DNA of 41,334 nt from Draconibacterium orientale (GTDB lineage Bacteria; Bacteroidota; Bacteroidia; Bacteroidales; JAIFNL01). A program made the position numbers and the translations under genes. The notes under the pieces are model-generated. The model was not told the origin of the DNA, made no database searches, and saw only the letters and a list, made by a program, of their open reading frames with translations. Location of the stretch: contig DZBP01000009.1 of the NCBI GenBank assembly GCA_022729915.1, forward strand, positions 1-41,334, read 5' to 3'. Below, piece after piece: positions 5,970 to 32,953 of this stretch. Numbering within the stretch: position 1 is the first letter of the stretch; the number at the start of each line of letters is the position of its first letter.

Positions 5970-8900
5970 TTATCTGACAAGAGAAATATTTCCTTTTAAA
6001 ATTTCTGAATTTTTGGTTAATTTTATTCGATACCAGTAGGCTCCCATGGGCATTGGTTTGTTGTTGAAATTTCCGTTCCAACCAATTTCACCTGAATTAT
6101 AGCGTGTTATACTATTTCCATTTCTATCGTAAATTTGAACCCACGCATCGGGATAAAGCTCAAGGTGTTGAATTTCCCAAGTATCGTTAATTCCATCATC
6201 GTTTGGCGTAAAAGCTGAAGGGATAACAATGCACATATTACTCGATGCAATAATCTCAATATCAGTAGTCAAAATGCAATTATTTTCATCTTTGGCGGTT
6301 AATGAGTGCATTCCGGCAGCCAAATTTTGAAATAAACCATCAGTTTGTTCTACGGAATTATCTAATTTATAGCTAATTATACCAGTTCCGCCAGTAGCTT
6401 TGGCTAAAATTTCGCCGGTATTTATTCGGTCGCAATTCAAATCTACTTTTTTTATTTCATTGAATATTAGCTTATTAGGCTCAATGATTGGTACAATAGT
6501 GGGAGTCGTTCGGCAATTGTTTCCATCTTTAGCTACCACAGAGTAGTTTCCTTTTTGTAAAAAGCTAAATATGTTTGATGTACTGAAATTTAGAGCATTA
6601 TCTATTGAAAATGAATAATTTCCTACGCCACCATGTGCTTGCAGTTTTATTTCACCATCATCTTCACCGAAGCACGAAATGTTGTTTTTTTGAAATTCAA
6701 ATAGGAGTTGTTCTGGTTGTGTTAACCGAATGGAACTATCTATTTCACAGTTGTTTGCATCTCTTACTAAAAGTTGGTAATTATTCGCTTTTTGATTTAG
6801 AAATACTGAGTTTGATTGAAAATTTTCGCCATTATTTATAGAATAGAGTAGAGGAGTAGTACCTCCAACAGCTTTAATATCAATGCTTCCATCGCTGAAA
6901 TTAAAACAACTAGTTACGTTTTTTATTTCAATTTTTTCAAATTCCAACTTGTCTGGTTGCAGTATTTCTAACGTTGTAGAAATTTTACAATTGTTTGTAT
7001 CTTTGGAAGTTACAAAGTATTCTCCTGCTTGGAGGTTTTCAAATATTCCTGAATTTTGATAAACAGAGTTGTTGTTGAGAGCATAGCTTTTGTTACCACT
7101 TCCGCCAATTGCAATTACTTCAATTTTACCATTTTTATCGCCAAAACAGCCATTTATATTGGTCATTTCTTTTGTGGAAAAGCTTAGCTTTTGAGGCTCA
7201 ACAATACTTAAAAAAAGTGATTTTTGGCAATTGTTTTTATCTTTGATAATTGCTGGATAATTATTGGCATTTAGTTGTTTAAAAGTGCTATCTTCTTGAA
7301 AAGTATTTCCGTTATCAATAGAAAAATAATAAGGCTTTGTGCCTCCTTTTACACTAAACTCAATTTTTCCCGAAAAATCATTGAAGCAGCGCAGGTTTTC
7401 TGTATTTTTGGTAACATTTAGCACTTGAGGCGCAATAATAGTTATGTTTTTTGACTTAAAACAATTATTTGCGTCTAAAATTTTTAGTGTATAATTGCCA
7501 ACTATTAAGTTAGAAAAAAGGCTTTCTGTCTGATAATTAATCCCATTATTTATTGAAAAGCGATAGGGAGTTTTACCACCTGAGGTATTAAATTTAATTG
7601 AAACATCGTTTGAATTATTGCAGCCTGAATTAATTTCTTCATTCATAGTCAATTCATTAGGTTCAATTATTTCAATTACTTTTAGTTTTTTACAATTCTT
7701 TTGATCTTTTACTATGAAATTGTAAATTCCTTTTGAAAGCCCAATAAAAGCAGTAACTTCTTGATAATTAGTACCATTATTACTTGAAAACTGAAAAGGC
7801 GGAAAACTTCCATAAACAAAAAAATTGACTGTTCCATTCATTTCACCAAAGCATTTAATATCTTGTTTTGTGTAATTAACGTCAAAAATTGGCTCTTTAA
7901 GCGTAGCAGAAGCTGTTTGCTTGCACAGATTTTCATCTTGAATAATGATTGGATAATATCCGGCTTTTAAATTTTCAAAAGTTGGCTCGTTTTGAAAATT
8001 TTCGCCAGAAGTAATCGAGTAAAAAAGAGTTCCAGTTCCACCTTCACCGGAAATTGAAATTTTACCCGTTGAATCGCCGTTACACGTAAGATTTTCGGTT
8101 AGAATGGAATTTACTAAAATTGCATTAGGTTCAGTAATAGAGATAGTTAAACTCTTCGAGCAGCTGTTTTTATCTTGCACAATGGCTTGATAATTTTTAG
8201 CAGTTAAATTTACAAAACTAGTTGTTGTTAGATAATTTACACCCGAATTGATTGAATATCTGTAAGTTCCTGCACCTCCTGTTGCGTAAAGTGTTATGGT
8301 TGCATCGTTTAACCCATTGCAGGTTACATTTGAATGAATTTCCGAAATTTTTAATTCATCTTCTTGAAATACAGAAATATAACGCGCTTCTGTACAACCA
8401 TTCGCATCTTTAACTTTAGCGATATATTCATTAGCCATCAAATTTTCGAAAATAGGATTCGTTACAAAATTTTCATTTTCGATTGAAAATTTTAACGGAT
8501 TTACTCCACCTTTGGCATAAAAAGTAATTTTACCGTCGTTTGAATTGAAACAACTTAAATCTTTGGTATGTATTGAATCGATAATTAATTTATCCGGTTG
8601 AAAAATCGAAAAGCTTTTTTCAGCAGTACAATTGTTAATATCCTTAACTTGAGCAGTATAATTTCCTGCTGCTATGTTTTCAAAAAGTTCGGTTTCGTTA
8701 AAATTTGTTCCGTCAATTGAAAAAGTATGAATTGCTGTTCCACCTGATGAAATAATTTCGGCAGAACCATTATTATCTGCAAAACAAGGAGCTACATTTT
8801 TAAGTATGATATTAGAAATGGTAATTTTTTCAGGTTCGTTAATGTTTAGCGCGAAAGATTTTTGACACCCATTTTTATCTTTTGCCACAACTTGGTAGTA

Positions 8901-9497
8901 CCCAGCATAAAGTTCTGAAAATAAGTTAGTTGAATAGAAATTAATTCCATTATTAATCGAAAATTCATAAGGTAAACTTCCGCCAGTTCCGGTGAGTAAA
9001 ATACTACCACTTTTATCACCAAAGCAACCTAATACATTTGTTTTTTGTCCAGTTAGCTTAAACTCTTCAGGTTGAGTTATTTCAATAGATAAAGAGGCTT
9101 CGTTATTGAGAGCATCTCGTACTTTTACAGTGTAATAACCTACATCAAGATTTAGAAAATCTCCGTTGCTTTGGCTTGATTGCCAATTGTTTATAGTGTA
9201 AACATAATCGGGAGTTCCACCTACAGCATACAGTTTAATGTAAGCATTTTTGTCGCCATAACAACCAGTTACATTTTTTACTATTCCTTCGAGTTTTAAT
9301 GCCTCATTTTCAATGGAAAAAATAGTATTGTGGATAAACAAAAAAAAGACAAAAAATAAAACTGTTGTTTTTATTTTACCCGAAAATTTATTTTTAAGGC
9401 AAACTAAAATAGGAGAATTGCACTTAAAATCTGAAGTTAAAAGCATATATTTTATGAAAATTTGAGTGTTAAATACCAATGTTTTTAAAATAAACAT
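5970..9497 (-). CDS. SprB-repeat surface protein with gliding-motility/T9SS type C-terminal domain
   Basis: 13 tandem ~78-80 aa modules (CFGDxxGxI...GGTxPYxFSINNGxNFQ...FxNLxAGNYxxxVKDxNNC...EPxxL), then IPSAFTPNDDGINDTWEIQHLELYPDAWVQIYDRNGN...GAYWYRI. ORF track starts at GTG 9515; ATG 9497 or 9446 is preferred because it avoids or reduces overlap with an intergenic repeat. Confidence 0.92.
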   Translation of the reverse strand: MFILKTLVFNTQIFIKYMLLTSDFKCNSPILVCLKNKFSGKIKTTVLFFVFFLFIHNTIFSIENEALKLEGIVKNVTGCYGDKNAYIKLYAVGGTPDYVYTINNWQSSQSNGDFLNLDVGYYTVKVRDALNNEASLSIEITQPEEFKLTGQKTNVLGCFGDKSGSILLTGTGGSLPYEFSINNGINFYSTNLFSELYAGYYQVVAKDKNGCQKSFALNINEPEKITISNIILKNVAPCFADNNGSAEIISSGGTAIHTFSIDGTNFNETELFENIAAGNYTAQVKDINNCTAEKSFSIFQPDKLIIDSIHTKDLSCFNSNDGKITFYAKGGVNPLKFSIENENFVTNPIFENLMANEYIAKVKDANGCTEARYISVFQEDELKISEIHSNVTCNGLNDATITLYATGGAGTYRYSINSGVNYLTTTSFVNLTAKNYQAIVQDKNSCSKSLTISITEPNAILVNSILTENLTCNGDSTGKISISGEGGTGTLFYSITSGENFQNEPTFENLKAGYYPIIIQDENLCKQTASATLKEPIFDVNYTKQDIKCFGEMNGTVNFFVYGSFPPFQFSSNNGTNYQEVTAFIGLSKGIYNFIVKDQKNCKKLKVIEIIEPNELTMNEEINSGCNNSNDVSIKFNTSGGKTPYRFSINNGINYQTESLFSNLIVGNYTLKILDANNCFKSKNITIIAPQVLNVTKNTENLRCFNDFSGKIEFSVKGGTKPYYFSIDNGNTFQEDSTFKQLNANNYPAIIKDKNNCQKSLFLSIVEPQKLSFSTKEMTNINGCFGDKNGKIEVIAIGGSGNKSYALNNNSVYQNSGIFENLQAGEYFVTSKDTNNCKISTTLEILQPDKLEFEKIEIKNVTSCFNFSDGSIDIKAVGGTTPLLYSINNGENFQSNSVFLNQKANNYQLLVRDANNCEIDSSIRLTQPEQLLFEFQKNNISCFGEDDGEIKLQAHGGVGNYSFSIDNALNFSTSNIFSFLQKGNYSVVAKDGNNCRTTPTIVPIIEPNKLIFNEIKKVDLNCDRINTGEILAKATGGTGIISYKLDNSVEQTDGLFQNLAAGMHSLTAKDENNCILTTDIEIIASSNMCIVIPSAFTPNDDGINDTWEIQHLELYPDAWVQIYDRNGNSITRYNSGEIGWNGNFNNKPMPMGAYWYRIKLTKNSEILKGNISLVR

Positions 9498-9508
9498 TTT
9501 TTTTGTTA

Positions 9509-9612
9509 TAAGCACTAAGACAAAATAAATTGCATATTTCGTTTTGCCAAGTGCTTAAAATTTATTTGATTACAAAAAAGTTTGCTCCAATTAAAAAAAG
9601 CACTGGTGCTTA
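9509..9612 (+). repeat. Repeat family 1 copy A (104 bp, TAAG...CTTA ends)
   Basis: taagcactaagac...ttttgccaagtgcttaaaatttatttgattacaaaaaagtttgctccaattaaaaaaagcactggtgctta; matches copies C-F. Confidence 0.9.
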
Positions 9613-9705
9613 AAATAATTTTAGAAGTGATCATCAAAATTAATTTCTTCATTAATTTATGTTTCTTTCTTTACAACTTTTTATTCCTCAAAAAAAATTA
9701 AAACT

Positions 9706-9808
9706 TAAGCAAAGGTGCCATTTTATTTTGAGTTATCTTTTTGTAATCAATTATATTCGATTCATTACTGATTAAGAAATATAATAGAATTTTCGAACAT
9801 CTAAAATG
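9706..9808 (-). repeat. Repeat family 1 copy B (degenerate)
   Basis: Reverse complement contains aattgattacaaaaagataactcaaaataaaatggcacctttgctta, matching the 3' half of the family; 5' half strongly diverged, so the outer boundary is approximate. Confidence 0.65.
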
Positions 9809-9878
9809 AGTATAATTTCTGAAAATTACAAAATTTCAGAAATTAAAAATTTTATTTTTTTTTGAAATTTGAATAAAT

Positions 9879-9980
9879 TAAGCACGCGTGCTATTTAAAA
9901 TGGAGTTAACGTTCTTGTTGTTTGTTTTTTTTAAGCACCTCGCAAAAGTTGATATACAATTAATTAAGTCTTAGTGCTTA
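9879..9980 (-). repeat. Repeat family 1 copy C (102 bp)
   Basis: Reverse complement taagcactaagacttaattaattgtatatcaacttttgcgaggtgctta...tttaaatagcacgcgtgctta; shares the 5' TAAGCACTAAGAC of copy A. Confidence 0.85.
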
Positions 9981-13971: not shown

Positions 13972-14074
13972 TAAATCGAGAACCAAATTTAATTGTATAT
14001 TTTATTTCGCCAAGTGATTAAAAATTAATTGATTACAAAAATGTTTGCTCAAAATAAAATAGCAGTGGTGCTTA
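13972..14074 (+). repeat. Repeat family 1 copy D (103 bp)
   Basis: taaatcgagaaccaaatttaattgtatattttatttcgccaagtgattaaaaattaattgattacaaaaatgtttgctcaaaataaaatagcagtggtgctta. Confidence 0.9.
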
Positions 14075-25721: not shown

Positions 25722-25824
25722 TAAGTAGTGAGCCAAATCAAATTGTATGTTTCACTTTACAAAGTGCTAAAAATCTATTTGATAACAAAAAGACTTGCTC
25801 AAATTAAAATAGCACTAGTGCTTA
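25722..25824 (+). repeat. Repeat family 1 copy E (103 bp)
   Basis: taagtagtgagccaaatcaaattgtatgtttcactttacaaagtgctaaaaatctatttgataacaaaaagacttgctcaaattaaaatagcactagtgctta. Confidence 0.88.
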
Positions 25825-32852: not shown

Positions 32853-32953
32853 TAAGCACCAGTGCTATTTTATTTTGGAGCAAACTTTTTTGTAATAAAA
32901 AAAAATAAGCACTTGGCAAATAAAATATACAATTAAATAGGGTTTGCTACTTA
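32853..32953 (-). repeat. Repeat family 1 copy F (101 bp)
   Basis: Reverse complement taagtagcaaaccctatttaattgtatattttatttgccaagtgcttattttttttttattacaaaaaagtttgctccaaaataaaatagcactggtgctta. Confidence 0.92.

Follow-up and report, generated by a model that had tools for sequence, protein, structure and literature searches.

The window, by which we mean the whole 41,334-nucleotide stretch of DNA analyzed here, carries a cluster of three copies of a short repeat between a SprB-repeat gene and gyrB and three further copies downstream. Copy A (9509 to 9612, plus strand) is a full-length copy of a probable MITE that has the young 5′ subtype of the repeat (TAAGCACTAAG...) and up to 96% identity to other genomic copies. 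Its 5′ 49-nucleotide part (9509 to 9557, plus strand) is what remains of an IS630 right end; the family consensus read antisense gives the transposase C terminus. The copy closes with the 3′ terminal palindrome AGCACTGGTGCTTA (9599 to 9612, plus strand). Copy C (9879 to 9980, minus strand) is full length and diverged, with 72% identity to copy A. The sequence-only reading of this DNA had placed copy B at 9706 to 9808 on the minus strand. A profile HMM recognized the 3′ half of this decayed copy at 9706 to 9757 (minus strand; HMM positions 51 to 103, E = 0.0055), but the remainder is indistinguishable from AT-rich background. Copies D (13972 to 14074, plus strand; HMM match from 13978 to 14074), E (25722 to 25824, plus strand), and F (32853 to 32953, minus strand) are all full length and have the older 5′ subtype (TAAGTAGTGAGCC... 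in copy E). Six copies had been proposed, and A, C, D, E, and F are borne out at these positions with lengths of 101 to 104 bp.

The cluster of copies A, B, and C looks like the product of repeated insertion into one long AT-rich gap between divergent genes. The SprB/CHU_C (type IX secretion) ORF on one side of this gap (5970 to 9515, minus strand) was called from a GTG at 9515 and so overlaps copy A by 7 bases; translation probably begins at a more internal codon.

Copy number, ends, and genomic placement

The genome that contains the window, G000, is a 3.5-Mb draft in 299 contigs that is 83% complete. The density of six copies in 41 kb, if typical, had implied a large genome-wide family, and a scan of G000 found one, with 328 to 354 first-look candidates, 40 top-scored places that matched at E < 1e-30, and 160 occurrences of AGCACTGGTGCTTA with at most one mismatch versus 0 for the reversed control. 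We estimate the total at about 160 to 350 copies in G000. An exact 23-mer core pattern had 0 matches in a wider contig collection, from which records near G000 are possibly absent, and the repeat had no match in viral contigs and plasmids.

Copy statistics were based on 132 profile hits from the fetched G000 loci, 106 of which were unique and near full length. The median divergence of these 106 copies from the majority consensus was 11%, but the best copies in G000 had 97 to 99% identity to the young-subtype consensus, which means that several waves of spread are represented, the latest fairly recent. In dozens of copies, similarity ended abruptly with the terminal TAAG and CTTA, beyond which the flanking sequences were unrelated apart from A/T richness. 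The TAAG...CTTA ends described for the window thus recur across the family, with TAAG at the start of 73/106 copies and CTTA at the end of 99/106. The terminal inverted repeat is 7 bp long in the young subtype (TAAGCAC/GTGCTTA) and is limited to 4 bp (TAAG/CTTA alone) in the older TAAGTAG subtype. The 2-nucleotide center of the 3′ palindrome had been reported to vary; the variation is real, but the center is mostly TG (90/106 copies).

Two partial or interrupted forms were also seen. Isolated near-perfect hairpins of about 48 nucleotides that match just the 5′ portion of the element (TAAGCAC...GTGTTTA) lie at about positions 1496 to 1549 of locus L032 in genome G002 and at positions 95 to 147 of L024. 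These are the only two examples of a solo 49-nucleotide hairpin; they are probably truncations, and we rejected the hairpin as a mobile unit. At L084 (G000 contig C196, about 1506 to 1741), an insert of about 140 bp interrupts one copy of the repeat seen in the window; the insert carries AAAGGGCTAAAGCCCTG and CCCGACCTAAAGGTCGGG palindromes and is bounded by a 10-bp direct repeat, TTATTGCCAA. This insert is another small mobile element.

All copies in the window had been called intergenic, and the sampled G000 loci show intergenic accumulation: with ORFs counted from 120 codons upward, 131 of the 132 copies examined were intergenic, while 82% of random positions in the sampled DNA fell inside such ORFs. 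The flanking genes were in tandem at 64 copies, with 20 divergent pairs and 20 convergent pairs, in line with all of the gaps there (109, 26, and 31, respectively). Relative to tandem genes, 27 copies had the same orientation and 37 the opposite orientation, with no clear bias. No regulatory placement of the copies was visible in the flanking-gene arrangement or in the orientation. The observed placement is what would survive if insertions were selected against in genes or preferred AT-rich sites.

Mobility, TA duplication, and IS630 ancestry

At several loci (L104, L066, and L012), copies are nested within older members of their own family. When the outer copy at L104 was rejoined with one TA kept, its length equaled that of the uninterrupted sequence (30 = 30 nucleotides), and the same was true of L266, from a sister family in genome G017 (43 = 43 nucleotides); rejoined without a TA, both were 2 nucleotides short. 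L066 rejoined with one TA came within one base (29 versus 29 to 30 nucleotides), and L012 gave a weaker fit, consistent with TA duplication only if a further 2-nucleotide change is allowed. The cleanest case is L310 in genome G071, where a repeat of a sister family has inserted toward the 3′ end of a gene for an IS630 transposase. Excision with exactly one TA kept restores a 92-amino-acid frame, whereas keeping zero or both TAs breaks it. No target duplication longer than TA adjoins the element. The sequence-only reading saw no obvious target-site duplication because the duplication is just TA and is concealed by the TA with which each end of the repeat terminates. These results show that the repeat moved as a unit and that its insertion duplicated TA. 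The repeat also has other features of a MITE, being short and without coding capacity and occurring as many dispersed copies with sharp common ends.

Within the same genus, G001 had about 182 first-look candidates and G002 almost none. Outside the genus, we probed with the 3′ terminal palindrome, a subterminal GTGCGTAAGCAACATTAAATAG block, and the 5′ end TAAGYACYNNTACAAAAGTTNTT. The same architecture was present in G017, G085, G071/G174, and G259, genomes that represent four separate families of the order, and almost every other sampled genome was blank with the palindrome and GTGCGTAAGCAACATTAAATAG probes. From gyrB matches of 73 to 78% to Bacteroidales and Bacteroidetes MAGs, the order is loosely placed as Bacteroidales-like. 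The highest count, 663 for one 5′ end, came from the 5.7-Mb genome of G017. A second sister MITE of G071 (L283, L297, L305, and others) has the same 5′ end followed by a minisatellite of about 24 bp (ATAATTGTATCATTGAACCATTGA), the unit number of which differs among copies, and it ends in ...ATCATTCCTTA with no palindrome. Many contigs break off a few tens of bases into a repeat (for example, C59, C82, and C94 of G017 and C206, C246, and C345 of G071), which suggests that these MITEs fragment the G017 and G071 assemblies.

We searched G000 and the genomes of its relatives for DDE_3 (IS630-family) transposase genes. At L309, in G174, the transposase gene ends with FGTKYTIKFS* and is followed directly by GTGCTTA, and the insertion sequence (IS) end read inwards is TAAGCACCTATGAAAATTTAATTGTATATTTCGTT. 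This IS, which comes from another family of the order and not from G000, has a right end with 28/36 identities to the first 36 nucleotides of the window family, compared with 15.3 ± 2.4 identities in shuffles, 0/2,000 of which reached 28. The same right end has 32/36 identities to the sister repeat of G085. The ORFs of L309 (DDE_3, E = 5.5e-30) and L115, both found in relatives and not in G000, match PF13358 (DDE_3) and HTH_23/HTH_29. As in the C terminus of the L309 transposase, KYTI[KNY]F can be read antisense in the repeat consensuses of G000, G001, G085, and G259. The antisense reading of the window family is GKTKYTIYF or GEIKYTIKF, and KYTI is kept in 69/106 copies in G000.

A transposase flanked by TAAG...CTTA ends had been proposed as something to look for, and IS630 copies with such ends occur in the relatives G017, G071, and G283, but none was found in G000. 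The ends are visible on the left of L115, on the right of L311 and L317, and on the apparently complete L318. At L115 (G017), an IS630 transposase gene is preceded by the left end TAAGTACTATTACAAAAGTTTTTCGAC, which the G017 repeats carry as their 5′ end. L317, also in G017, holds a C-terminal fragment from this transposase group, and its right end read inwards is TAAGTAGTTTGACAAAAGTTTTCC. The end of the IS630 gene at L311 (G071) adjoins an inward TAAGCACTCCAACAAAAGTTTTTAC right end with its first base changed, and L318 (G283) is an apparently complete member of the group, about 1,071 bp long, with the ends TAAGTAGT...ACTACTTA. Within G017, the sister repeats and the IS630 copies have 20 to 25 nucleotides of the repeat 5′ ends in common. 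Based on the end identity, the antisense C-terminal codons, and the DDE_3 ORFs, we conclude that the 5′ end of the repeat descends from the right end of an IS630 element, an ancestry shown by sequence comparison.

Origin of the repeat and alternative explanations

We put at about 0.9 the probability that the repeat is a nonautonomous MITE of about 101 bp with duplicated-TA flanks that derives from an IS of the IS630 family (IS630/Tc1-mariner). In this account, the 5′ end of the MITE is the right end of the IS, with the final transposase codons readable on the opposite strand, and the middle of the IS has been lost. A transposase of the IS630 type, supplied in trans, would cut at the AGCAC.../...GTGCT ends, and the excised unit would reinsert at a TA in AT-rich DNA so that the TA becomes duplicated, after which the inserted copies would decay neutrally. 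We infer that an IS630 transposase moved the G000 copies and that these copies do nothing for the host. The sequence-only reading had offered a MITE-like or REP-like element or a structured RNA; the first of these stands, sharpened to an IS630-derived MITE with TA duplication, but the other two are unsupported.

Neither profile nor protein searches found an IS630 transposase in G000. This absence is weak evidence because the draft is 83% complete and in 299 contigs, and the gene may be missing through incompleteness, assembly collapse of repeats, or true loss. G001 has the IS630 copies L114 and L116, and L114 was rejected as a partner on account of its differing inverted repeats (AACGCAATAATAAATTTGGCA). 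The invisibility of an IS630 gene in G000 would also suit a MITE that was moved by some other TA-targeting DDE transposase and had captured an IS630-like fragment as its 5′ end, as would the 3′ end, which is not recognizable as an IS630 end. Compared with IS ends, this 3′ end shares TAAG and a few scattered bases and does not reproduce the opposite end of the IS. However, IS4/IS5-type DDE_Tnp_1 genes were likewise not found in G000, which led us to reject DDE_Tnp_1 as the partner, and the 5′ sequence common to sister repeats and IS630 copies in G017 also speaks against a different transposase. We consider this explanation improbable.

The 3′ end also differs among relatives. The palindrome arms are GCAC/GTGC in some sister families and GGTC/GACC in others, and one G071 family is without a palindrome. 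It is conceivable, though we doubt it, that the MITEs are true hybrids that join one IS630 end to an unrelated module whose terminal palindrome varies between sister families. Were this so, the transposase would have to tolerate a second end with hardly more than TAAG in common with the inverted repeat of its own element, and such loose recognition of ends would be unusual in the IS630 class.

The covariation of the palindrome arms between sister families, together with a consensus fold of −20.6 kcal/mol, is what recommends a structured RNA or cis-regulatory element that is selectively kept at each site. Within G000, however, arm mutations in single copies were uncompensated (0 compensated, 19 broken, and 8 G-T). 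The palindrome is therefore not maintained copy by copy and would be relevant in a few source copies at most. Moreover, the copies nest in and disrupt one another, and their orientation to genes shows no clear bias. Rfam gave no family at the gathering score; at E < 0.5, eight repeat-bearing loci yielded one subthreshold match, to Trp_leader, which lies beside the repeat and not on it. A structured RNA or cis-regulatory element is accordingly very improbable.

Least probable of all is a REP/REPIN-like element with hairpins acted on by a Y1 (RAYT) transposase: the repeat is short, intergenic, present in hundreds of copies, and terminally palindromic, and G000 has one single-copy Y1 gene, but that gene, the only one found there, is surrounded by CGTAGGGCGTTGCCCTACG repeats with a different palindrome and not by the window repeat, the Y1 genes of G001, G002, and G017 sit among their own, differing palindromes, and the TA duplication and transposase C-terminal codons indicate IS630. 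The Y1 locus itself (L046; G000 contig C245, 1 to 720) has the RAYT-like gene amid CGTAGGGCGTTGCCCTACG palindromes arranged in tandem, along with a CAGCCTTTCAGGCTGG repeat, and is a separate REP system in G000.

Relation to known elements

As far as the literature searched shows, the family is new and its kind is already known; we found no papers there on Bacteroidetes MITEs of IS630 origin. In several uncultured Bacteroidales-type lineages, intergenic DNA is filled by this repeat, for which boundaries, a target rule, and an ancestry are now available. The repeat probably breaks assemblies of these lineages, and masking it is advisable before regulatory RNAs or promoters are called in them.

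The IS630-derived MITE resembles REP/REPIN elements with RAYT in copy number, intergenic location, and palindromic end, but it duplicates TA, and the Y1 gene of G000 sits among other repeats. BrickBuilt is described, in a citing paper, as a Porphyromonas gingivalis MITE with a minisatellite (cited in PMC5771137), and by that description it is a Bacteroidales parallel to the G071 sister repeat with 24-bp units. The Correia/NEMIS elements of Neisseria and the ERIC/RU-1 elements of enterobacteria are small, with TA termini, terminal inverted repeats of 24 and 7 bp, respectively, and target duplication, and according to a review they have no IS match (PMC2229807). Compared by description, the window family is like them in being a small repeat with TA termini and target duplication, and its own terminal inverted repeat is 7 bp in the young subtype and 4 bp in the older one.

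The nearest known element in kind is RUP of Streptococcus pneumoniae, which is 107 bp long, has about 108 to 110 mostly intergenic copies, TA at both termini, a 9-bp terminal inverted repeat, and TA targets, and has been proposed to be mobilized in trans by IS630-Spn1 (PMC2229807, PMC3049150). Likened by description, the two agree in size, intergenic bias, TA termini, and TA targets, and the 9-bp terminal inverted repeat of RUP compares with 7 bp in the young and 4 bp in the older subtype of the window family. They differ in that the host phyla are unrelated, the window family has more copies per genome, and no IS630 gene was detected alongside it in the G000 draft. Moreover, the ancestry of RUP was deduced from terminal inverted repeat similarity only, whereas that of the window family comes from residual transposase codons, making it a bacterial example in which the ancestry of a MITE can be seen in leftover transposase codons, beyond matching inverted repeats.
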